Assembly (NCBI GenBank): GCA_023512015.1
Contig: JAIMAI010000003.1
Coordinates: 1 to 64,000, forward strand
Direction of reading: 5' to 3'
Source: Acidothermus sp.
GTDB taxonomy: Bacteria; Actinomycetota; Actinomycetes; Acidothermales; Acidothermaceae
DNA: 64,000 nucleotides
This document shows positions 18,845-33,211 of the stretch, in pieces (positions within the stretch are counted from its first letter, which is position 1; the number at the start of each line of letters is the position of its first letter). The notes under the pieces were generated by a model. That model made no database searches and was not told where the DNA came from. It was given only the letters and a program-made list of their open reading frames with translations. The position numbers and the translations under genes are program-made.

Positions 18845-20761
18845 GTGACAGACACCACCACAGCACCGGAAACCGTGTCTTCTGAAGCGACGACCACTTT
18901 TTCCGGGGGAGACGACACCCGTAGTCGTCGGCGCAGGAGCGGCGATTCCTCCGCCTCCGGTTCCCTCTCCTCGATGGTCTTGTCGGAGCTGCAGGCACTG
19001 GCCAGCAGCCTGGGAATCACCGGTGTGGCGCGGATGCGCAAGGGCGAGCTGATCGCCGCAATTCAGCAGCGTCAGGGCTCAGGGGAAGCTGCTGCGCAGG
19101 CACCCCAAGTCGCGGCACCGTCCGCCGCTCCCGCTCCGGGCAGTGGCGCGGGTCGGGGTCGTGGTCGACGTCCGGTGGTCCCGGCGCTGGAGACCCCGAC
19201 GCTCGACGTTGCCTTGCCGCCCGCAGAGGCGCAGGAGGCCGGCGGTGCTGCGGCGGGTGCGACGGTGAACGGCGAAGTGCGCGCGGCGCCGTCCGCGACG
19301 GCCGAGGCCGCACCGCAGCGGCGGGCCGGGCGGTTCGGGGGACGCCCCGAGCAGCAGTCCGCGCAGCTTCCGGCACGCCCGACCCCCTCACTTCCCGCCC
19401 AGCCGGTGCCTCCGCCTGCGACGAGCACCCCGCAGCTCGGCGGTAACGGCGGTGCCCGCCCGGAAAGCGCCGGTAATGGGGGAGCCGGCGAGACGGAACG
19501 CCGACGCGACGACGAAGAGCTCGGCGACATCGGCGGACGGCGGCGCCGCGGGCGTTTTCGGGAACGTGGCCGCGCCCGGGTGCGGGAGCGCTACGGCTCC
19601 GACGGGGAGCCGCAGGTCGGTGAGGACGACGTCCTGGTTCCCATCGCCGGAATTCTCGACGTCCTCGACAATTACGCCTTCGTCCGTACCTCGGGGTATT
19701 TGCCGGGACCGAACGACGTGTACGTCTCGCTCGCCCAGGTGCGCCGCTACGGTTTGCGGAAGGGTGATGCCATCACCGGAATGGTCCGTCAGCCGCGTGA
19801 AGGGGAACGGCGGGAGAAATTCAACCCGCTGGTGCGCCTGGACACCGTCAACGGCATGGATCCGGAATCCGCGCGCAATCGCGTGGAATTCGCGAAACTG
19901 ACCCCGCTGTATCCGCAGGAGCGGCTGCGCTTGGAGACCGATCCGCAGCAGCTCACCACCCGAATCATCGATCTCATCGCCCCCATTGGAAAAGGACAGC
20001 GCGGCCTCATCGTCTCCCCGCCGAAGGCGGGCAAGACGATGGTGCTGCAAGCCATCGCCAACGCCATCACCCGCAACAATCCGGAGTGCCACCTCATCGT
20101 GGTGCTCGTCGACGAACGCCCGGAAGAAGTCACCGACATGCAGCGGTCGGTGAAGGGCGAGGTCATCTCCTCGACCTTCGACCGTCCCGCCGAGGACCAC
20201 ACGATGGTGGCGGAACTGTCCATCGAGCGGGCCAAGAGGCTGGTCGAGTTGGGCCACGACGTGGTCGTGCTGCTCGATTCGATAACCCGTCTGGGGCGCG
20301 CGTACAACACGGCGGCGCCGGCGTCCGGTCGTATCCTCTCCGGCGGCGTCGACTCGGCCGCTTTGTATCCGCCGAAGAAATTCTTCGGAGCCGCGCGGAA
20401 CATCGAAAACGGCGGCTCGCTCACCATCATCGCAACAGCCCTCGTCGAAACCGGTTCGCGAGGTGACGAAGTCATCTTCGAAGAATTCAAGGGCACCGGG
20501 AACATGGAGCTCAAGCTCGACCGGAAATTCGCCGACAAGCGAATCTTCCCGGCGGTGGACATCAACGCATCCGGGACGCGCAAGGAAGAAATCCTGCTCT
20601 CCCCGGAAGAGCTCCAGATCGTGTGGAGATTGCGCCGCATCCTGCACGCGCTCGAACCGCAACAGGCGTTGGAGTTGCTCATCGAGAAGATGCGGCAGAC
20701 CCGCAGCAACGCGGAGTTCCTGGTGCAGGTCCAAAAGACGATGCCGATGCCCTCGGAGTGA
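18845..20761 (+). CDS. rho: Transcription termination factor Rho
   Basis: A 638-residue hexameric RNA-dependent ATPase that ends transcription. An N-terminal Rho-N helical unit ([18 protein letters not shown]) is followed by ~160 disordered residues rich in Ala, Pro, Gly and Arg. Then come the RNA-binding cold-shock-like domain ([13 protein letters not shown]) and the ATPase core, with Walker A K397 in SPPKAGKT and Walker [13 protein letters not shown]. The long insertion is typical of high-GC actinobacterial Rho and adds RNA contacts. The start is GTG with AAAGGA upstream. In mycobacteria rpmE follows directly; here six other genes intervene. Confidence 0.96.
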
Positions 20762-20937
20762 TCGCCGCGAGCTCGGCCTCCACCGGGCGTCGGACGGGGG
20801 CATTGCGCCGTTCGGCGTGCTCGGTTGGGTCGGTTGGCTGCTTCACTTCCGTGCTCTTGTGCCGACTATCTTCCCGTAATCGGTAACCGGCACCCACGAA
20901 CCAAAGGGTGTCGAACGACGGTCACGCGGAGCGACGC

Positions 20938-21693
20938 ATGAACGTACTCGCGATCGGTGCCCACCCCGACGACATCGAGCTCGGCTGCGGAGGGGCGCTG
21001 CTTCGACACGTCGCCGTCGGAGACAAGGTCACGATGCTCGTGATGACCACCGGCGAGCGCGGCCCGCAGGACTCGGTGTCCCGGGTCCTCGAGCAGGAGA
21101 ACGCAGCGGCCCGGATCGGAGCCGAACTGATCTGGGGCGGATTCCCCGACGGCGCGATCCCGCACAGCCGCGAGACCGTCACCTTCATCGACTCCGTGAT
21201 CGATGCCGTGGGGGCGCAGGTGCTCTACACCCACGGCCAGCACGACACCCACCAGGACCACGTCGCGACCGCGCTCTGCTCGCTGTCCGCAGCCCGTCGG
21301 CTGAACCGCGTGCTGTGCTACCAATCGCCGTCGGCGACCGCGTTCAATCCGGTGGTTTACGTCGACGTCGAAGAGACGATCAAGGGGAAGCTGGACGCGC
21401 TCGCCTGCCATCGGTCGCAGGTGGAGCGGTGCGAGCTCGTCGATCTCGAAGCCGTCGAAGCCGGCGCGCGTTTCTGGGGACACCAGGCGCGGATGCGCTA
21501 CGCGGAAGCCTTCGAGGTGCCGCGGTTCGTCTGGGACATCACCGGCGGTGAGGCCGCCGTCCGCCGCGTGGAGAGCAGCGCAGTCGCCGCAGACGAGCGC
21601 GCGGATCGCCAGCGCCTCGGAGTCATCGACGGCGACCAGAACGGCGCACCTCGGCCGGTCCCGGTGTACCTGGTCGGTGGCCGTCGTCCGTGA
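20938..21693 (+). CDS. PIG-L/LmbE-family zinc deacetylase
   Basis: A 251-residue hydrolase of the family that removes acetyl groups from GlcNAc-containing substrates (PIG-L, MshB, BshB). The zinc motif AHPDD gives ligands H9 and D12, and the later HDTHQDH motif gives the third. The ATG follows GGAG at 6 bases. A frame extension to 20908 is possible but less well supported. Its GTGA overlap with a processive glycosyltransferase suggests it de-N-acetylates a sugar of the polymer or lipid intermediate made by this cassette, and it is less likely to be the mycothiol enzyme. That is inference. Confidence 0.85.
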   Translation: MNVLAIGAHPDDIELGCGGALLRHVAVGDKVTMLVMTTGERGPQDSVSRVLEQENAAARIGAELIWGGFPDGAIPHSRETVTFIDSVIDAVGAQVLYTHGQHDTHQDHVATALCSLSAARRLNRVLCYQSPSATAFNPVVYVDVEETIKGKLDALACHRSQVERCELVDLEAVEAGARFWGHQARMRYAEAFEVPRFVWDITGGEAAVRRVESSAVAADERADRQRLGVIDGDQNGAPRPVPVYLVGGRRP

Positions 21694-23102
21694 CCAGCCG
21701 CGCTCCGGTCACGCCGGTCGCCCAGGTGGCTACCGGCGAGGCGGACGGCGTCCCGTGGACTTTTCTCCTCCTCACCGGCCTGGCGGCCCTCGCCGTCGGT
21801 CTCCTCGGGACCAACCGTGCGATCTTCCTCGGGGTACTGCTGATCAACCTTGTCTTCCTGGTCTTCTTCCTCAGGCATGTGGCGTTCGCCGCGGCCGCCG
21901 CGCGGTGGGCGCCGTCCGATCTCTACGAGGTCCCGGACGTCCCCAGCGACTTCCTGCCGACGGTCAGCGTCCTGGTCGCCTGCCACAACGAGGAAGCCGT
22001 CGTCCCCGGGCTGGTCCGCGGGCTGGTGGCCCTGCACTACCCCCGCTCGCGACTGGAGATCCTGCTGGTGGACGACGGATCCGCCGACCGCACGGGGGAG
22101 TTGCTGGACCGGCTGACCGCCGGGATCGGCCACATGCGGGTCATCCACCGGCCCGCGGGTGCCGGTGGGGGGAAGTCCGGCGCCCTCAACACCGCCCTCG
22201 CCGAGGCCCGCGGGGAGATCGTGGTGGTCTTCGACGCCGACCACATCCCGCGACGCAACGTCATCCATCGCCTGGTCCGCCACTTCCGTGACCCCAGGGT
22301 CGCTGCGGTCCAAGGGCGGTGCATCGTGCGGAACTCAGTGCAATCCACCCTCGCCCGCTCGATCGCCATCGACTACTTCTCGGGGTATCTGGTCAACGAG
22401 TACGGGCGTCAGGCGCTCTTCGGGCTTCCCGCGTACGGCGGCGCCAATTGCGCGATTCGCACCGAGTTGCTCAGAGAATTCGGGGGATGGAACGTCAACA
22501 GCGTGACCGAAGACACCGATATCACGCTACGGCTGGTGCTGGCTGGCTACCGTGTCCGCTACGACATCACCGCGGTCGATACCGAGGAAGGGGCGACGAC
22601 GTTGAACCGCTTCGTCCGCCAGCGGTATCGGTGGGCGCGGGGCCACCAGCAGGTGTGGCGGGATTACCGGTCGAGCGTGTGGAGCTGCCCGCACCTGACG
22701 TTCGGCCAGAAGATCGAGACGACGCTCTTCCTGCTCGTCTACCACGTGCCGGTGCTGTGCACCCTCACGCTGGTGTTGACCCTGCTGCGGCTGGTGGGTA
22801 TCGGCCCCCACGTCAGCGTCCTCGAACTGCTCCCCCTCGCGTCGTTGCTCTTCGCCGGCCCGTTCTGCGAGTTGGCGGTCGGGTTGCTGGTCGGGCGGGC
22901 GCCGCGCCGCGCCGCCTGGTCGGTTGCCTGGATGACCCCGATCTTCCTGGTGTTCATGCTGGTCTGCACCCGCGCGTGGATCGACGGCCTGCTCGGACGC
23001 CCGTACACCTGGGTGAAGACCAAGCGCTCCCAATGGAGCGCCCTGCACGGGCGGGAAACCACCGGGGACGTCGACCGGGTACTCGGCGGGGAGAGCACGT
23101 GA
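21690..23102 (+). CDS. Processive membrane glycosyltransferase, GT2 (cellulose/hyaluronan-synthase-like)
   Basis: A 470-residue membrane enzyme. Two N-terminal helices (residues ~22-62) precede a cytoplasmic GT2 domain with VDDGS near 128, the DAD metal motif near 183, TEDTD near 274 and QRYRW near 312. This full D, D, D, QxxRW set marks processive synthases. C-terminal helices follow (~345-430). It may polymerise and extrude a beta-linked surface glycan. It overlaps the deacetylase before it and the exosortase-like gene after it by 4 bases each. A GT2 beside an exosortase recalls the XrtG cassettes of other Gram-positive bacteria. Confidence 0.87.
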   Translation: MTSRAPVTPVAQVATGEADGVPWTFLLLTGLAALAVGLLGTNRAIFLGVLLINLVFLVFFLRHVAFAAAAARWAPSDLYEVPDVPSDFLPTVSVLVACHNEEAVVPGLVRGLVALHYPRSRLEILLVDDGSADRTGELLDRLTAGIGHMRVIHRPAGAGGGKSGALNTALAEARGEIVVVFDADHIPRRNVIHRLVRHFRDPRVAAVQGRCIVRNSVQSTLARSIAIDYFSGYLVNEYGRQALFGLPAYGGANCAIRTELLREFGGWNVNSVTEDTDITLRLVLAGYRVRYDITAVDTEEGATTLNRFVRQRYRWARGHQQVWRDYRSSVWSCPHLTFGQKIETTLFLLVYHVPVLCTLTLVLTLLRLVGIGPHVSVLELLPLASLLFAGPFCELAVGLLVGRAPRRAAWSVAWMTPIFLVFMLVCTRAWIDGLLGRPYTWVKTKRSQWSALHGRETTGDVDRVLGGEST

Positions 23103-23632
23103 TCCGCCGTCGCGTCACCATCGCTGCGCTGCTGGCCGCGTCGCTGATCGTGGCCTTCGGTGGTTTTCTGCTGCTCTCGGAGCCGCTGCGCCATCTCGAA
23201 GAGCGCCTCGTCCTCGACGTCCTGCGCTCCGGGAATCGGGTGACCCTCTTCGGCGATCACGACTTCCAGGTGCTGCCCCCACACCACGCCGCCTTCCGGG
23301 CCCAGCTCACCCCCTTCTGCTCTTCCCTGGTCCCCGTCCTGGCGCTTGCGGCGATCGCGGCGTTCGTCGTCCACGGGCATTGGCTGCGGCGGTCGGTCGC
23401 GTGGGGTTGTGCCGCCGGGCTGGTGGTGGCCTGCAACGTGCTGCGGATCGCCGGCTCCCTCTGGGTGGGCCTCGAACTCGGGCCCAGCGGACTCGTCCTC
23501 TTCCACGACTGGGTCGGCACGATCTTCGGTCTCGGGTACACGATGGTCGGCTTCTTCCTGATGCTCTATCTGCTGCTCCCGCGGGCCACCACCCGCATCC
23601 CGCGGGCGGCGCGGGTCAGCGACGTGTTGTGA
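23099..23632 (+). CDS. Exosortase/archaeosortase-family protein
   Basis: A 177-residue polytopic membrane protein, about five helices, short for the family. The three family residues are present in order. C74 lies in LTPFCSSLVPV at a helix start, R116 in CNVLRIAGSLWVG, and H136 in LFHDWVGTIFGLGY. Exosortases and archaeosortases are proposed Cys transpeptidases that cut a C-terminal sorting signal and join the protein to a lipid or glycan. Embedded in a glycan cassette and coupled by GTGA to a GT2, it might attach proteins to that glycan or act on the glycan itself. I found no protein with a matching sorting tail in the window. Catalytic assignment is from motif pattern only. Confidence 0.75.
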   Translation: MIRRRVTIAALLAASLIVAFGGFLLLSEPLRHLEERLVLDVLRSGNRVTLFGDHDFQVLPPHHAAFRAQLTPFCSSLVPVLALAAIAAFVVHGHWLRRSVAWGCAAGLVVACNVLRIAGSLWVGLELGPSGLVLFHDWVGTIFGLGYTMVGFFLMLYLLLPRATTRIPRAARVSDVL

Positions 23633-23640
23633 GTTGACCC

Positions 23641-25086
23641 ATGAGTGAAGCCATTCGTCTCATCGCTCTCGCGCTCGGGGTCGCCCTCATCGCCGCGGGG
23701 GTCGCCTGGCGGATGATCCGGTCTGCGCGGGTTCGCCAGGGAATCCGCCGTGGCCTGGCCGACCCGGATCCGGCGGTGCGCATCGCCGCCGTCCGTCAAG
23801 CCGCCGAGATCGGGTTGGCCAGTACGGCTCCCGCGCTGCTCCGGGCCGTGCGAACCGAGACGGATCCGGCGGTGCGCGCCGCGGTGGTCGACTGCGTGGC
23901 CGCCCATCAGTGGGAACCGGCGTCCACAGCCGCGATCGTGGAGTTGCGCTTGTGGGCCAAGGCGTACGTCGCCTCCCGTCCCGATCTGGCCCGCCCTACC
24001 GGCCTGCTGCACCCCGGCGTTCCCGGCACGGTCCCGTCGCCGTCGCTGCACCCGGCCCGCGAGCACGAATTTCGCCGCCGCACCGCCACCGACGTCCATC
24101 TCGACGAGCGCAGCCCGCTCGGCCCTCCGGCGGACGACGACCCGCTCACCCCGGTGCGGGTCGTGGTCACCGGCGTCGGGGGGGCGGCGGGAGTGGCGGT
24201 GCTGCGGGCGCTGCGCGCCGCCGGTCACGTGGTGATCGGGGTGGACGCCGACCCCGACGCCGTCGGAATCCGGCTCGCCGACCACGGTCATCCCGTCCCC
24301 CGTTGCGACGACCCCACCTACCTGGTCTCGCTCATCCACGTCGCCACCCTCTTCGACGCCGAAGCGATCATCGGTACGGTCACCGAGGAATTCCCGGCGC
24401 TCATCGCCGGGGCCGAATTCCTCCGCGACGCGGGGTTGCGCTTCGTCTTCCCCGACCTCGCGACGGTCCAGACCTGCCGCGACAAATGGGCGTTCTTCCA
24501 GGCCATGCGGCAGGCCGGGGTGCCGGTTCCCGCGACCTCCCTAGGCGGCGCGGACGGCGTCCCCGGCCCGTGGATCGTCAAACCGCGTTTCGGTCGGGGC
24601 TCCCGCCAGGTGCACGCTGTCGCCGCGCTGGCCGAACTCGACGCCGCGCTGGCCCTGGTGGACGAACCGTTGGTGCAGACCGCGGTGTGCGGCCGGGAAT
24701 TCACCGCCGACGCGCTGGTGTGGCCCTCCGGGACGTTGGCCGGCGTCGTCCCCCGGTGGCGGATCGCCACCAAGGGCGGTATTTCCACGGTCGGTGAGAC
24801 GTTCGAAGACGACCGGGTCGTCGAAACCGTCGGGCTGGCGCTGAAAGCCGTGGGGCATATCGGGCCGGCCAACGTGCAAGGCTTCGTCGACGACGACGGA
24901 TCGGTGACCGTCATCGAAGTGAATCCGCGTTTCTCCGGGGGCTTGCCGCTGTCGCTCGCCGCGGGAGCCGATTTCGTCGGCGAATTCCTACGCGCAGTCA
25001 TGGGTCGCCAGGTGCGCCCGGAAAGGTTGGTCGGCCGCCCCGGGGTGCGTATGCACCGCTATTTCGACGAGGTGTACCAGGCATGA
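23641..25086 (+). CDS. Membrane-anchored ATP-grasp ligase with HEAT-like region
   Basis: A 481-residue protein of unusual order. It has one N-terminal membrane helix (LIALALGVALIAAGVAW), then two to three short helical repeats resembling HEAT units (DPDPAVRIAAVRQAAE, TDPAVRAAVVDCVAAH). A Rossmann-like segment (VVVTGVGGAAGVAVLRAL, residues ~177-195) and an ATP-grasp domain related to carbamoyl-phosphate-synthase-type ligases follow, with IVKPRFGRGSRQV near 316 and the metal site VIEVNPRFSGG near 423. ATP-grasp enzymes activate a carboxylate and join it to an amine or thiol. Here the target could be an amino sugar or the surface polymer. It begins 8 bases after the exosortase stop. Substrate is unknown. 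Confidence 0.78.
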   Translation: MSEAIRLIALALGVALIAAGVAWRMIRSARVRQGIRRGLADPDPAVRIAAVRQAAEIGLASTAPALLRAVRTETDPAVRAAVVDCVAAHQWEPASTAAIVELRLWAKAYVASRPDLARPTGLLHPGVPGTVPSPSLHPAREHEFRRRTATDVHLDERSPLGPPADDDPLTPVRVVVTGVGGAAGVAVLRALRAAGHVVIGVDADPDAVGIRLADHGHPVPRCDDPTYLVSLIHVATLFDAEAIIGTVTEEFPALIAGAEFLRDAGLRFVFPDLATVQTCRDKWAFFQAMRQAGVPVPATSLGGADGVPGPWIVKPRFGRGSRQVHAVAALAELDAALALVDEPLVQTAVCGREFTADALVWPSGTLAGVVPRWRIATKGGISTVGETFEDDRVVETVGLALKAVGHIGPANVQGFVDDDGSVTVIEVNPRFSGGLPLSLAAGADFVGEFLRAVMGRQVRPERLVGRPGVRMHRYFDEVYQA

Positions 25087-25099
25087 GGATCGCCGTCCT

Positions 25100-26236
25100 A
25101 TGAGGCTCACCGTCGGACTTGGGACCCGGCCGGAAATCGTCAAACTCGCCGGCGTCGTGCGGGCGCTGCGGTCGCGCGGCCACGAGGTGCGAATCGTCGC
25201 GACCGGCCAGCACGTCGATCCGCGGCTCGCCGGGGATTTCTTCGCGGAATTGGGATTCACCCCCGACGCGACCTGGAATCTGCCTGCCGGGGAAGCCGAT
25301 CGCGTCGGAGCGATGCTCGCTGCGGCTTTCCGCGAATTCGCCGCACACCGACCGGATGCCGCCGTCGTCCTCGGTGACACCTACACCGCACCTCTCGTTG
25401 CGATGGGGGCCCGCCGTTTCGGGGTGGGGGTGGTGCACGTCGAGGCCGGCCTGCGCTCCTTCAACGACGTCTCCATGGAGGAGGTCCACCGGCGCATGAT
25501 GGTGGGGCTGGCCACCTTTCATTTCGCCCCGACCCCGCTCGCCGCGGAATTCCTGCGCACCGAGGGAGTTGCCGATGAACGCATTCGGGTCGTCGGCAAC
25601 CCCGTGATCGATGTGCTGGTCGAAAGCGGGGTCACGCGCATGCCGTGGCAGCGCCGACACGGCGTCCTGCTCACCGCGCACCGCGCAGGCAACGTCGACG
25701 ATCCCGAGCGACTGGACCAACTGATCCGGTTGCTGCGGGCCCTGGGGCGCGTTCAACCACCTGTGATCTTCCCGGTGCATCCGCGGACCCGTGACCGCCT
25801 GCTCGCCGCCGGTCGTTTCGAGGAGGCCGCCGCGTTGGACGGCGTCCGGCTCGTCGAGCCGCTGCCCTACCACGCGTTGTTGGAGACCTTGGCCCGTAGC
25901 CGGGTGGTGGTGACCGACAGCGGCGGCCTGCAGGAGGAGGCCGCGTGGTTCGGCGTCCCTGCCGTGGTGTTGCGGACCACGACCCCACGCTGGGAGAGCG
26001 TCGAAGCCGGCATCGCGGTGCTCACCGGCATGGACGCCGACCGGGCGCTCGCCGCGGTCGAGCGGTTCACCGATCCGGCCGAGCTCGCCCGGGTCGATGC
26101 ATCGGCGTGCCCGTACGGTGACGGGCGTGCGGGGGAGCGGATCGCCGAGGCACTGGCCGACCCCCACCTGCTGAGCCTGATCGTCCCCCGGGAGCCTGAG
26201 GTAGGTGCGATGCCGGTGCTGGAGGGGCTGCGGTGA
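25100..26236 (+). CDS. wecB: UDP-N-acetylglucosamine 2-epimerase family
   Basis: A 378-residue GT-B-fold enzyme interconverting UDP-GlcNAc and UDP-ManNAc. It has GTRPEIVK at the N-terminus, VVLGDT near 92, HVEAGLRSF near 113, LTAHRAGNVDD near 192 and TDSGGLQEEA near 272, all family signatures. Length is typical. It would supply ManNAc units to the glycan built by the cassette's glycosyltransferase. It is coupled downstream to the HAD gene by a GTGA overlap. Confidence 0.9.
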   Translation: MRLTVGLGTRPEIVKLAGVVRALRSRGHEVRIVATGQHVDPRLAGDFFAELGFTPDATWNLPAGEADRVGAMLAAAFREFAAHRPDAAVVLGDTYTAPLVAMGARRFGVGVVHVEAGLRSFNDVSMEEVHRRMMVGLATFHFAPTPLAAEFLRTEGVADERIRVVGNPVIDVLVESGVTRMPWQRRHGVLLTAHRAGNVDDPERLDQLIRLLRALGRVQPPVIFPVHPRTRDRLLAAGRFEEAAALDGVRLVEPLPYHALLETLARSRVVVTDSGGLQEEAAWFGVPAVVLRTTTPRWESVEAGIAVLTGMDADRALAAVERFTDPAELARVDASACPYGDGRAGERIAEALADPHLLSLIVPREPEVGAMPVLEGLR

Positions 26237-27000
26237 CCGCCGTCCGCGAGCCGACGTCGGGGGAAAAGGTGCCGAGCGGTCAGATCGCAGCGGTGACCAT
26301 CGATCTCGACGACACGCTCTTCGACCAGCGGCTCTGGCTGGACGGCGCGTGGCAGGCGGTGGGCACCGCAGGAGCGGTGTTCGGCCTCGACCCCGAGGCG
26401 TTGATCTCACGGCTGCGGGTGATCGCAGCGGAGGGAAGCGACCGCGGGAGGATCATCGATCGCGCCTTGCTCGACCTCGGGGTACCGCAGTGGGAGCTGC
26501 CGGCCGTCGTACCCGGGCTGGTCGCCGCGTTCCGCTCTCATGCCCCGGCGTCGCTGCCGTGCTATCCGGGGGTGGGCGAAGCGCTGGAGGCGGTGCGCCG
26601 CTGGGTCCCCGTCGGATTGATCACCGACGGGGATCCTCACGTGCAGCGGGCGAAACTGCGGGCCCTCGGCCTCCGCGACGCCTTCGATGTCATCGTCTTC
26701 TCCGACGAACTCGGCCGTCGCCACCGCAAGCCCTCCCCGGAGCCTTTCCTGCGGGCGCTGCGCGAGCTGGGAGTCGAGCCGGCCCACGCCGTGCACATCG
26801 GTGATCGACCGGCCAAGGATGTCGCCGGTGCCCGGGGTGTGGGCATGCGGGCGATCCGGGTGCGCACCGGGGAGTATCGGGACCACCCCGACGACCCGCA
26901 GGCTGCTCCGTGGCGAGTCTTCGACCGTGCCACCGAGGCGCTGCACTGGCTTGCCGTCCAACTCGCGGCGACCCGCCCGAGTCGCCTTCTGGCAGACTGA
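26233..27000 (+). CDS. HAD-superfamily phosphatase
   Basis: A 255-residue hydrolase. The HAD motif I nucleophile and acid are D24 and D26 (TIDLDDTLFD), motif II is LITDG, and motif III/IV is KPSPEPF followed by HIGDRPAKDVAGARGVGM. A helical cap lies between motifs I and II. It probably dephosphorylates a small phosphate ester such as a sugar phosphate. As last gene of the cassette it may act on a phosphosugar precursor. A strong hairpin starts 6 bases after its stop and closes the unit. Confidence 0.85.
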   Translation: MTAVREPTSGEKVPSGQIAAVTIDLDDTLFDQRLWLDGAWQAVGTAGAVFGLDPEALISRLRVIAAEGSDRGRIIDRALLDLGVPQWELPAVVPGLVAAFRSHAPASLPCYPGVGEALEAVRRWVPVGLITDGDPHVQRAKLRALGLRDAFDVIVFSDELGRRHRKPSPEPFLRALRELGVEPAHAVHIGDRPAKDVAGARGVGMRAIRVRTGEYRDHPDDPQAAPWRVFDRATEALHWLAVQLAATRPSRLLAD

Positions 27001-27005
27001 GAGGC

Positions 27006-27029
27006 CGGACGGCGTCCTCTCGCCGTCCG
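27006..27029 (+). terminator. Hairpin closing the glycan cassette
   Basis: CGGACGGCG and CGCCGTCCG form a perfect 9-base stem with a 6-base loop right after the HAD gene. It marks a transcript end between the cassette and rpmE, so rpmE is probably expressed from its own promoter. Confidence 0.6.
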
Positions 27030-27094
27030 CGTGAAAGCAGGTACCGGTTCACGCCATGCTCGGCGACCCGGCGACCCGAGAGCAGGAGATCGCG

Positions 27095-27355
27095 TTGAAG
27101 CCCGACATCCATCCCGAGTACCGAGAGACCACCGTGATCTGCAGCTGTGGGAACACCTTCACCACCCGCAGCACCGCCAAGAACGGCGTCATCCACGCCG
27201 AGGTCTGCTCGAATTGCCACCCCTTCTACACCGGCAAGCAGAAGATTCTGGACGTCGGCGGCCGGGTGCAGAAGTTCGAAAAGCGTTTCGGCCAGGTCAC
27301 CGGAGCCGTGCGCACCGCCGCATCCCGCGCAGGCCGCAAGGCCGGCCGCAAGTAG
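27095..27355 (+). CDS. rpmE: 50S ribosomal protein L31, zinc-binding form
   Basis: An 86-residue ribosomal protein. The TTG start is chosen because AGGAG lies 6 bases upstream and the translated start reads [11 protein letters not shown], the usual L31 N-terminus; the ATG 13 codons earlier gives an extra segment unlike the family. C16, C18, C38 and C41 (CSCGN, CSNCHPF) form the zinc site, so this is the zinc-containing and not the zinc-independent paralogue. The C-terminus is extended with basic residues ([12 protein letters not shown]). Confidence 0.93.
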
Positions 27356-27449: not shown

Positions 27450-28544
27450 ATGTTCGAAGCGGTCGAGGAGGTACTCGCAGAACACGCGGAGCTGGAGCGC
27501 CGGCTCGCCGACCCGGCGGTGCACGCCGATCCGCGTACCGCGCGTGCCCTCGGGCGCCGCTACGCCCAGCTCGGCGCCGTGGTCGAGGCCTACCGACGTT
27601 GGAAGGCGTTGGACGACGACCTGGCCGCCGCCCACGAACTCGCCGCGTCGGATCCCAGTTTCCGGGGGGAAATCCCGGAACTCGAAGCGAGACGGGAGGA
27701 AGCGGCGGCCCGGCTGCGGGCCTTGCTCGCACCGTCGGATCCCAACGACGGCAAGGACGTCATCCTGCAGATCAAAGCGGGCGAGGGTGGGGAGGAATCC
27801 GCTCTCTTCGCCGGGGATTTGTTACGCATGTACCTGCGGTATGCCGAACGCCACGGTTGGAAGACCGAAATCCTCGATGCCACCGAATCGGATTTGGGTG
27901 GGTACAAGGACGTGACAATTGCCGTTCGTGCCGAGGGGTCGGAGGGCGCGTGGAGCAGGCTCAAGTTCGAAGGCGGCGTGCACCGCGTCCAGCGGGTGCC
28001 GGTCACCGAGTCGCAGGGACGAATTCACACCTCTGCCGTCGGGGTTGTCGTCCTTCCCGAAGCCGAGGAGGTGGACGTCGAGATCGACCCGAATGACCTG
28101 CGCATCGATGTCTTCCGTTCCTCTGGACCGGGCGGTCAGAGCGTGAACACCACCGATTCGGCGGTCCGCATCACGCATCTGCCCACCGGTGTGGTGGTCA
28201 GTTGCCAGAACGAAAAAAGCCAATTGCAGAACAAGGAAACCGCCCTGCGTATCCTGCGTGCGCGACTGCTGGCCATGGCACAAGAAGAGGCGGATGCCAA
28301 GGCCAGCGCACAGCGGCGTAGCCAGGTTCGCACCGTCGATCGTTCCGAACGCATTCGCACGTACAATTTCCCGGAGAATCGCATTTCCGACCACCGGGTG
28401 AATTACAAGGCGTACAACCTCGACCAGGTGTTGGACGGCGAATTGGACGGCGTCATCCAGGCGTTGCTCGACGCCGAGGCGGCGGCGCGGCTCGCTTCCG
28501 CCGACACCGATCCGACCAGACCCGTCTTGAGTAGGCAGCGGTGA
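27450..28544 (+). CDS. prfA: Peptide chain release factor 1
   Basis: A 364-residue class I release factor reading UAA and UAG. The tripeptide anticodon region carries P184-V185-T186 ([12 protein letters not shown]), the form typical of RF1 and not the SPF of RF2. The GGQ motif that triggers peptide release is at 228-230 ([10 protein letters not shown]). Its Gln is the site methylated by PrmC, encoded next with a 4-base overlap (GTGA). An N-terminal coiled-coil helical domain spans residues ~1-100. Confidence 0.96.
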
Positions 28545-32096: not shown

Positions 32097-32917
32097 GCGC
32101 GCTGACCTCTCCGCACGTGCTCGCCGTCGAGGTGGACGTCGGCACCCACCAGACCGTCAAACTTTTCGGCCTCACCTGGCATTGGGACACGATTCTCAGT
32201 TCGGTGGTCGCCGGCATCATCGTGGTCGGCCTCGGCTTGTATTTGCGGGCGACGGCACGTGCGGCCACCCCGAGCAAATTGCAGCTGCTCTTCGAGATGC
32301 TCGTCGGGTGGGTCAACAAACAGGTCGAGGAGAGCATGGGCCTGCGGGTGGCTCCCTTCGTCGCCCCCATGGCGGTCACGCTTTTCGTCTATATCTTGCT
32401 GTGCAACTGGATCGGCGTCATTCCGAGCGGTCATCCGGAGCGCTTCCCGCCGCCGACCGCTGACATCAACCTGACGCTCACCTTGGCATTGGTGGTCATC
32501 ATCCCCATGCATTTGGTGAGTCTGCGTCGGCGCGGGGTGCGCGGGTACATCCGGCACTATTTCGAGCCTTACAAAATACTTTTCCCGTTGGAAGTGGTCC
32601 AGGAGCTGTCGAAGCCGATCACTTTAGCGCTCCGGCTCTTCGGCAACATCTTCTCCGGCGTCATCATGGTCGCGCTGCTCGCGAACCTGCCGGCTTTCCT
32701 GCTCTGGGTGCCACAAGGGATCTGGAAGCTCTTCGATTTGTTCATCGGAGTCATCCAGGCGTTCATCTTCGCGCTCCTGACGATCCTGTACTACGCGTTC
32801 GCGACCAGCACCGAGGGCCACGAGGCCGAGCAATCCCACGATGAGGAAAGCTCGTCGGGCTCGGTGCCGCAAGCTCAACGATCCCCAACCCCTGTGCCGG
32901 CCAGCCAGAGCCGGTGA
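32093..32917 (+). CDS. atpB: ATP synthase F0 subunit a
   Basis: A 274-residue membrane subunit forming the proton half-channels. R181 in LALRLFGN is the essential Arg that faces the c-ring. YILLCNWIGVIPSGHP and the final helix IQAFIFALLTILYY are family features. The ~35-residue Ser/Glu/Pro-rich C-terminal tail is longer than in most species. It opens the eight-gene operon atpBEFHAGDC. Confidence 0.95.
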   Translation: MSALTSPHVLAVEVDVGTHQTVKLFGLTWHWDTILSSVVAGIIVVGLGLYLRATARAATPSKLQLLFEMLVGWVNKQVEESMGLRVAPFVAPMAVTLFVYILLCNWIGVIPSGHPERFPPPTADINLTLTLALVVIIPMHLVSLRRRGVRGYIRHYFEPYKILFPLEVVQELSKPITLALRLFGNIFSGVIMVALLANLPAFLLWVPQGIWKLFDLFIGVIQAFIFALLTILYYAFATSTEGHEAEQSHDEESSSGSVPQAQRSPTPVPASQSR

Positions 32918-32950
32918 CGACCAAACCCTGCGGAAAAGATCGGAGAAACG

Positions 32951-33211
32951 ATGGCTGCAAGCAACATCGAGAGTGCGGTGAAGACGGCGGGCGCCTTCAT
33001 CGGCGGTGGGCTGGCCCTGGCAGGCGGCGCCATTGGTGCGGCGATCGGTGACGGTCTCGCCGGTGCTCAGACCATCGCCGGAGTCGCCCGTCAACCGGAG
33101 GCCCAGCCCCGCCTCATGCCGCTCTTCTTCCTTACTGTGGGTCTGGTGGAGGCCATGTACTTCATCAACCTCGCGTTCATGGCCTTGTTCGTCTTCGTCC
33201 TCGGAAAGTAG
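32951..33211 (+). CDS. atpE: ATP synthase F0 subunit c
   Basis: An 86-residue hairpin proteolipid. Helix 1 is Gly/Ala-rich, the polar loop is ARQPEAQ, and helix 2 carries the proton-binding E67 (GLVEAMYF). The residues around E67 and in helix 1 lack the Gln/Ser-Thr set typical of sodium-coupled rings, so proton coupling is expected. Confidence 0.95.

Follow-up and report, generated by a model that had tools for sequence, protein, structure and literature searches.

An exosortase-family protein and candidate amino-sugar enzymes in a six-gene cassette between rho and rpmE of an Acidothermus genome

The closest described relatives of the locus studied here are actinobacterial loci in which a short exosortase, XrtP, is encoded next to a family 2 glycosyltransferase (GT2; NF053846) and a choice-of-anchor protein bears a tripartite C-terminal tail (CoaP_CTERM; NF053845). 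XrtG, from Gram-positive bacteria, likewise resembles an exosortase and has a partner GT2 (TIGR03110 and TIGR03111), and in the PEP-CTERM/EpsH system, of the exosortase A type, proteins ending in a motif, a helix and basic residues are linked to polysaccharide genes, with EpsH carrying three conserved motifs that include NxxR and HxxxG, according to PMC1569441. We analyzed a stretch of 64,000 nucleotides from Acidothermus sp. (GCA_023512015.1, contig JAIMAI010000003.1, positions 1 to 64,000; hereafter the window), in which an earlier note, made from the letters alone, had described six surface-glycan genes inserted between rho and rpmE, one of them encoding a 177-residue exosortase-like protein (Xrt). 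We found that this cassette recurs in three other genomes and that secreted proteins with sorting-like tails are coupled to it or lie beside it in several of them. We lean towards reading it as a dedicated exosortase system; the kind of system, an exosortase with a GT2 and a tailed protein as in XrtP/CoaP, is already known, while the subfamily and the gene set appear to be new.

The six genes lie where the earlier note had placed them, all on the forward strand and with coordinates that agree. The first (20938-21693) encodes a PIG-L family deacetylase (PF02585, 76.6 bits, cut-off 28.2) with HPDD and HDTHQDH motifs, for which a longer GTG start is possible at 20908; its nearest NCBIfam model is BshB1, at 87.9 bits and below the cut-off of 182.5. 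It is followed by a PgaC/IcaA-like GT2 membrane glycosyltransferase (21690-23102; PF13641, 107.4 bits; TIGR03937, 146.6 bits and below cut-off), whose translation contains the motifs DDGS, DADH, TEDTD and QRYRW, and by the Xrt gene (23099-23632). The fourth gene (23641-25086) encodes an ATP-grasp ligase with an N-terminal membrane helix and a HEAT repeat (PF15632, 53 bits; PF02655, 51.6 bits; PF13646 HEAT_2, 35.1 bits; all above cut-off), the fifth (25100-26236) a non-hydrolyzing UDP-N-acetylglucosamine (UDP-GlcNAc) 2-epimerase of the WecB type (TIGR00236, 250.7 bits, cut-off 210.15), and the sixth (26233-27000) a HAD-IA phosphatase (PF00702, 88.5 bits, above cut-off; TIGR01549, 48.6 bits, cut-off 23.3). 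The tight packing noted earlier consists of four-base overlaps at three junctions (PIG-L/GT2, GT2/Xrt and WecB/HAD) and gaps of 8 bp between Xrt and ATP-grasp and 13 bp between ATP-grasp and WecB.

By its score against the signature TIGR04178 (34.2 bits, and 35.9 bits in a second search, cut-off 23), the 177-residue protein belongs to the exosortase/archaeosortase family, as had been proposed. Its C74, R116 and H136, which the earlier note had numbered correctly, fall in the pattern C74 / N113xxR116 / H136xxxG140, and all five residues are invariant in an alignment of ten actinobacterial Xrts. The window Xrt thus resembles EpsH in its catalytic Cys, NxxR and HxxxG, but the C-x-G motif of EpsH is lost (C74 is followed by two serines, CSS), and with 177 residues the protein falls outside the EpsH type as defined by PF09721 or TIGR02602, eight transmembrane helices and C-x-G. 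The cassette also differs from PEP-CTERM/EpsH systems in having no PEP motif and only one or two candidate substrates per genome. In a tree with eight other Xrts, which left out the long Xrt of genome G013 and that of G471, the four cassette Xrts formed one group with a support of 100/100. A sequence search of the PDB with the window Xrt returned no exosortase relative, and an AlphaFold model built from a two-sequence input (mean predicted local distance difference test score 56.8) was too poor for use.

The window Xrt scores above the cut-off of no named exosortase subfamily. Its best named model is XrtS (NF033767; 37.5 bits against a cut-off of 145), and XrtS is the best or equal-best named subfamily for all four cassette Xrts, yet with scores of only 36.7-46.9 bits. 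The kinship to XrtG raised earlier holds only for the pairing with a GT2: the window Xrt does not match the XrtG model at E up to 1 and its GT2 reaches 61.7 bits against 363.95, which rules out XrtG as the closest system, and the nearest named systems are rather actinobacterial XrtP, XrtR and XrtS, the XrtP-associated GT2 and the CoaP tail. XrtP itself leaves the window Xrt unmatched, and the GT2 gives 81.5 bits against the NF053846 cut-off of 520. CoaP_CTERM found no match in the tailed proteins of two cassette genomes (G035 and G566, introduced below), while one of the other Xrt loci (L021, genome G274) has an Xrt, a GT2 and a protein above the cut-offs for both choice-of-anchor P and CoaP_CTERM. 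Compared with XrtP-type loci, the cassette adds PIG-L, HEAT/ATP-grasp and HAD genes and is without their small LPxTG-like protein. Cassette subfamily, gene set and tail set lie outside the NCBIfam models tested, and a literature search, with most subscription papers beyond its reach, returned no description of such a combination of genes around an exosortase in actinobacteria.

TIGR04178 was matched in one of three genomes of the window's order, in 11 of 393 genomes of our class sample (Actinomycetes, the window's genome counted) and in one of eight genomes of the order of G035, an actinomycete of another order than the window's. G035 carries all six genes in the same order, also between rho and rpmE/prfA, with identities to the window of 60% (PIG-L), 73% (GT2), 58% (Xrt), 58% (ATP-grasp), 63% (WecB) and 57% (HAD). 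A profile of ten Xrt sequences matched 4 of 256 genomes across the phylum; the fourth match, G471, has no cassette. The full set recurs, with its order unchanged, in G603 from another class (56, 54, 36, 52, 54 and 51%, respectively), and in G566 the contig ends after PIG-L, GT2, Xrt and ATP-grasp (57, 57, 43 and 48%). A scan of a contig collection with Xrt returned a single locus (L059), very probably the G035 contig itself. The genes remain linked in relatives, so that none of the three outcomes which the earlier note had said would refute it (no match to exosortase models, loss of C/R/H in homologues, scattered genes) came about. Between the window and G035, pN/pS (the ratio of nonsynonymous to synonymous differences) was 0.39-0.64 for the cassette genes, PIG-L left out, which indicates purifying constraint. 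Since homologous units occur in three other genomes and the genes are under constraint, the cassette is more than chance, and an accidental array or miscalled open reading frames (ORFs) can be ruled out. Carriage by plasmids or phages found no support, as tblastn with Xrt gave no match in collections of either.

Among the ten other Xrt-bearing actinomycetes of the class sample (G035 counted), a GT2 adjoins Xrt in all and WecB lies within the retrieved stretch in eight, while homologues of PIG-L, ATP-grasp and HAD were found at the G035 locus only. A free-standing membrane-HEAT gene on the opposite strand (L115, 6011-6916) takes the place of the helix-HEAT part of the ATP-grasp protein in G603. 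This free-standing gene marks that part as a partner module of the ATP-grasp enzyme, and the two arrangements are the outcome of a gene fusion or fission.

Candidate substrates were found in all four cassette genomes, with signal peptides assigned by visual inspection. The candidate of G035, a frame of 224 residues (182 from its likely start) with a signal peptide, sits between rho and PIG-L, belongs to no family above cut-off and ends in TPVSVVGS, a helix and RRSR; at its stop it shares four bases (ATGA) with the start of PIG-L. In G566, the gene that runs into PIG-L by four bases (GTGA) encodes a choice-of-anchor P protein (130.2 bits, cut-off 27) ending in VVPVGTIG, a helix and RGYRRR. These two proteins are mutually unrelated, and both are coupled to PIG-L. 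Beside its cassette and oriented divergently from PIG-L, G603 has a gene for a 753-residue secreted protein with the C-terminus APLAGSIG, a helix and NRRR. Homologues of the G035 protein occur twice in the window's genome, on contig 13 (KPVPVSGN, helix, HRRLR) and on contig 45 (KPVSLVGS, helix, HRRAR), the latter having lost its start at the contig end. Among the 393 Actinomycetes, tailed members of this family occur only in the window's genome (two) and G035 (one), with weak, domain-only matches in G031. These secreted proteins are putative substrates of Xrt. When a profile was built from the three close tails and run against 337 ORFs, mostly from exosortase loci, the held-out G603 tail ranked first among the non-seeds, although weakly (9.8 bits, E 0.015).

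PorU is the sortase of type IX secretion. In that pathway, the C-terminus of a protein is joined to an amino sugar from the Wbp route, with a putative deacetylase and an amino-acid transferase taking part, so that deacetylation, aminoacylation and sortase transfer are coupled; PMC7468200 also suggests that exosortases may work similarly, and in 2020 it still gave the attachment compound of bacterial exosortase substrates as unidentified. The archaeosortase model has the free amine of ethanolamine as acceptor (PMC7157517). By analogy, the cassette partners may build an amino-sugar acceptor. We prefer such a linking sugar because the cassette has a possible counterpart for those steps in other enzyme families: the Wbp/Vim pathway has the same logic of amino sugar, deacetylase, amino-acid addition and sortase transfer, but it uses a CE4 deacetylase and the acyltransferase VimA where the cassette has PIG-L and ATP-grasp, and the sortases are non-homologous, which makes this an analogy only.

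We hypothesize, with slightly more confidence than doubt, that the cassette is a dedicated exosortase system, in which tailed proteins would be cut and their C-termini passed to the amine of a sugar that the neighboring genes produce. Each genome would supply one or two secreted substrates, whose tails consist of a Pro-Val-x-x-x-Gly-type motif, a membrane helix and a terminus rich in Arg; Xrt, lying in the membrane, would use C74, R116 and H136 to cut near the motif, form a thioester with the protein and hand the new C-terminus to the amine. For the acceptor, WecB would turn UDP-GlcNAc into UDP-N-acetylmannosamine (UDP-ManNAc), the membrane GT2 would link amino sugars, PIG-L would take off an acetyl group and leave a bare amine, the membrane-tethered ATP-grasp enzyme may couple this amine to an amino acid, and the HAD phosphatase would dephosphorylate an intermediate. 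As a tentative and rather doubtful extension, a new exosortase subfamily might travel with its own acceptor enzymes, with PIG-L baring the amine on a ManNAc/GlcNAc glycan, ATP-grasp charging it with an amino acid and Xrt joining the PVxxxG protein to it. The earlier proposal of a machine that links proteins to a ManNAc/GlcNAc polymer is thus partly supported: the linking idea gains from the tailed secreted proteins coupled to the cassette, while the polymer and the joining keep the standing of a proposal. If the extension above is true, actinobacteria would have a linking sugar made by enzymes other than those of type IX secretion. A dedicated system of this kind would help to learn what membrane sorting enzymes attach proteins to. 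With a single exosortase, no more than two candidate substrates in each genome and a short putative route to the acceptor, the unit is small enough for transfer into a laboratory actinobacterium, where all three components could be studied at once.

Several observations weigh against a dedicated exosortase system. The window Xrt falls below the Pfam cut-off for PF09721 (EpsH; 17.9 against 25.7 bits), while the cassette Xrts of G566 and G603 exceed it (37.9 and 27.5 bits). In the window, no tailed gene adjoins the cassette, and both candidates of that genome lie on other contigs. The tails total five and are loosely alike; that of G603 reads PLAGSIG and departs from PVxxxG, and that of G566 lay outside the top 25 of the three-tail profile. 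A genome-wide tail search, proposed in the earlier note and run here over 22 genomes, singled out only the seed tails: it returned no further tails in any of the four cassette genomes, its best non-seed match (E 0.006) lies in a genome without Xrt, and the inspected part of the weak matches had no C-terminal tails. So small a number of tails would be expected if the system serves just one or two proteins, and equally if the motif is looser. What the sequences show is the set of genes and their order, how they are coupled and where they recur, the family of Xrt with its conserved catalytic residues, and the tailed secreted proteins; the chemistry, from cleavage and acceptor to each sugar step and the order of steps, is inferred. 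Finally, genes for PIG-L, ATP-grasp, a PHP-domain protein and a GT2 stand in a row in G157, where Xrt is missing from the locus (L106, 8230-12044); since this row, perhaps the sugar part of the cassette standing alone, exists, part of the unit has a use apart from sorting.

The same row speaks for an operon with two jobs, in which the sugar genes make a sugar for the matrix or capsule and the exosortase ties its proteins to something else, for example an aminophospholipid, with both products in the same surface layer. The archaeosortase ArtA has been modeled with an ethanolamine lipid (PMC7157517), and at nine further Xrt loci of actinomycetes a GT2 is present but homologues of PIG-L, ATP-grasp and HAD are missing from the retrieved stretch. 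We regard this as rather unlikely, given that a tailed protein is translationally coupled to PIG-L in two classes and that the tight conservation of the linked genes points to one pathway, but PIG-L and ATP-grasp serving another purpose is a live rival.

It is also conceivable, and in our view improbable, that Xrt works in polysaccharide assembly or export without a protein substrate and that the tails simply anchor ordinary surface proteins in the membrane. NCBIfam recognizes a pairing of Xrt with GT2 for both XrtG and XrtP (TIGR03111 and NF053846), and the tails are only weakly alike; however, the Cys, Arg and His are retained in ten diverse Xrts, tailed secreted proteins overlap the first cassette gene in two lineages, and the tailed family is confined to cassette genomes among the 393. 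A small-molecule pathway with Xrt as a passenger, modeled on mycothiol and bacillithiol synthesis, which proceeds by a glycosyltransferase, a PIG-L deacetylase and an ATP-dependent amino-acid ligase in this order, would suit a PIG-L closest to BshB1 among curated models, but it is very improbable with a GT2 of the membrane PgaC/cellulose-synthase-like rather than MshA type, an ATP-grasp enzyme that is membrane-tethered in three of four genomes and an Xrt within the unit at all four cassette loci (loci found through Xrt).

The insertion site is not peculiar to the system. The cassette is flanked in the window by rho (18845-20761) on the 5' side and by rpmE (about 27096-27355) and prfA (27450-28544) on the 3' side. 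We located rho in 26 of 30 genomes surveyed, and rpmE follows it within 250 bp in 16 of these, including G001, which belongs to the same family as the window's genome, and four genomes of G035's family. The gap holds the cassette in two, the two cassette genomes; in one, another gene follows rho, with rpmE at 1330 bp; in one, prfA lies 297 bp after rho and no rpmE was seen; in five, neither rpmE nor prfA lies within about 1.5 kb of rho; and one is broken by a contig end. The gaps of L068, L070, L072, L074, L078 and L084 contain unrelated secreted, reductase or transposase-like ORFs (names judged by eye). Since the site is mostly short and elsewhere filled by unrelated genes, the cassette looks like an insertion, but the gap is a permissive place. 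A system specific to rho-rpmE is ruled out by these unrelated genes in other actinomycetes and by the unit lying elsewhere in G603 and G566; within 19.9 kb around the G603 cassette, neither rho nor prfA was matched. Synonymous divergence between the window's genome and G035 is 0.89-1.00 in the cassette and 1.08 and 1.40 in the flanks, values that are alike and near saturation and so compatible with shared descent as with transfer. In the window, the stretch from rho to PIG-L (20762-20937) is part of the gap that varies among Actinomycetes. At the other end, the perfect 9-bp hairpin with a 6-base loop said to close the unit is present 3' of the HAD gene (27006-27029, forward strand), and may or may not be a terminator: no T-run lies 3' of it and it is absent from the terminator-scan output. 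Directly 3' of the hairpin and outside the cassette begins the L31-Actinobacteria leader RNA of rpmE (27038-27076, forward strand; RF03158, 45.9 bits, gathering threshold 35).

Other Xrt loci offered two side observations. Small proteins, mostly of 50-70 residues and often starting with MY, consist almost entirely of an LPxTG/LAxTG motif followed by a helix and some basic residues, and lie beside Xrt in 7 of the 10 non-window Xrt loci (L014, 9442-9648; L015, 9411-9575; L017, 10407-10619; L018, 3051-3389; L019, from 6614; L020, 10260-10412; L021, 11676-11831). In L019 the small protein is fused to the Xrt frame, and two of the proteins match the NCBIfam family LAXTG_small_WW below its cut-off. 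These proteins place a motif of classical sortases next to an exosortase. None was found in G566 or G603 and none that convinces in the window or the G035 stretch, where the sole match (32875-33033) proved to be a short frame on the antisense strand. In G182, GT2, Xrt and WecB are adjoined by a run of three secreted proteins that are related to one another and carry IPxVAPAV-helix-Arg tails (L015, 11681-14098).

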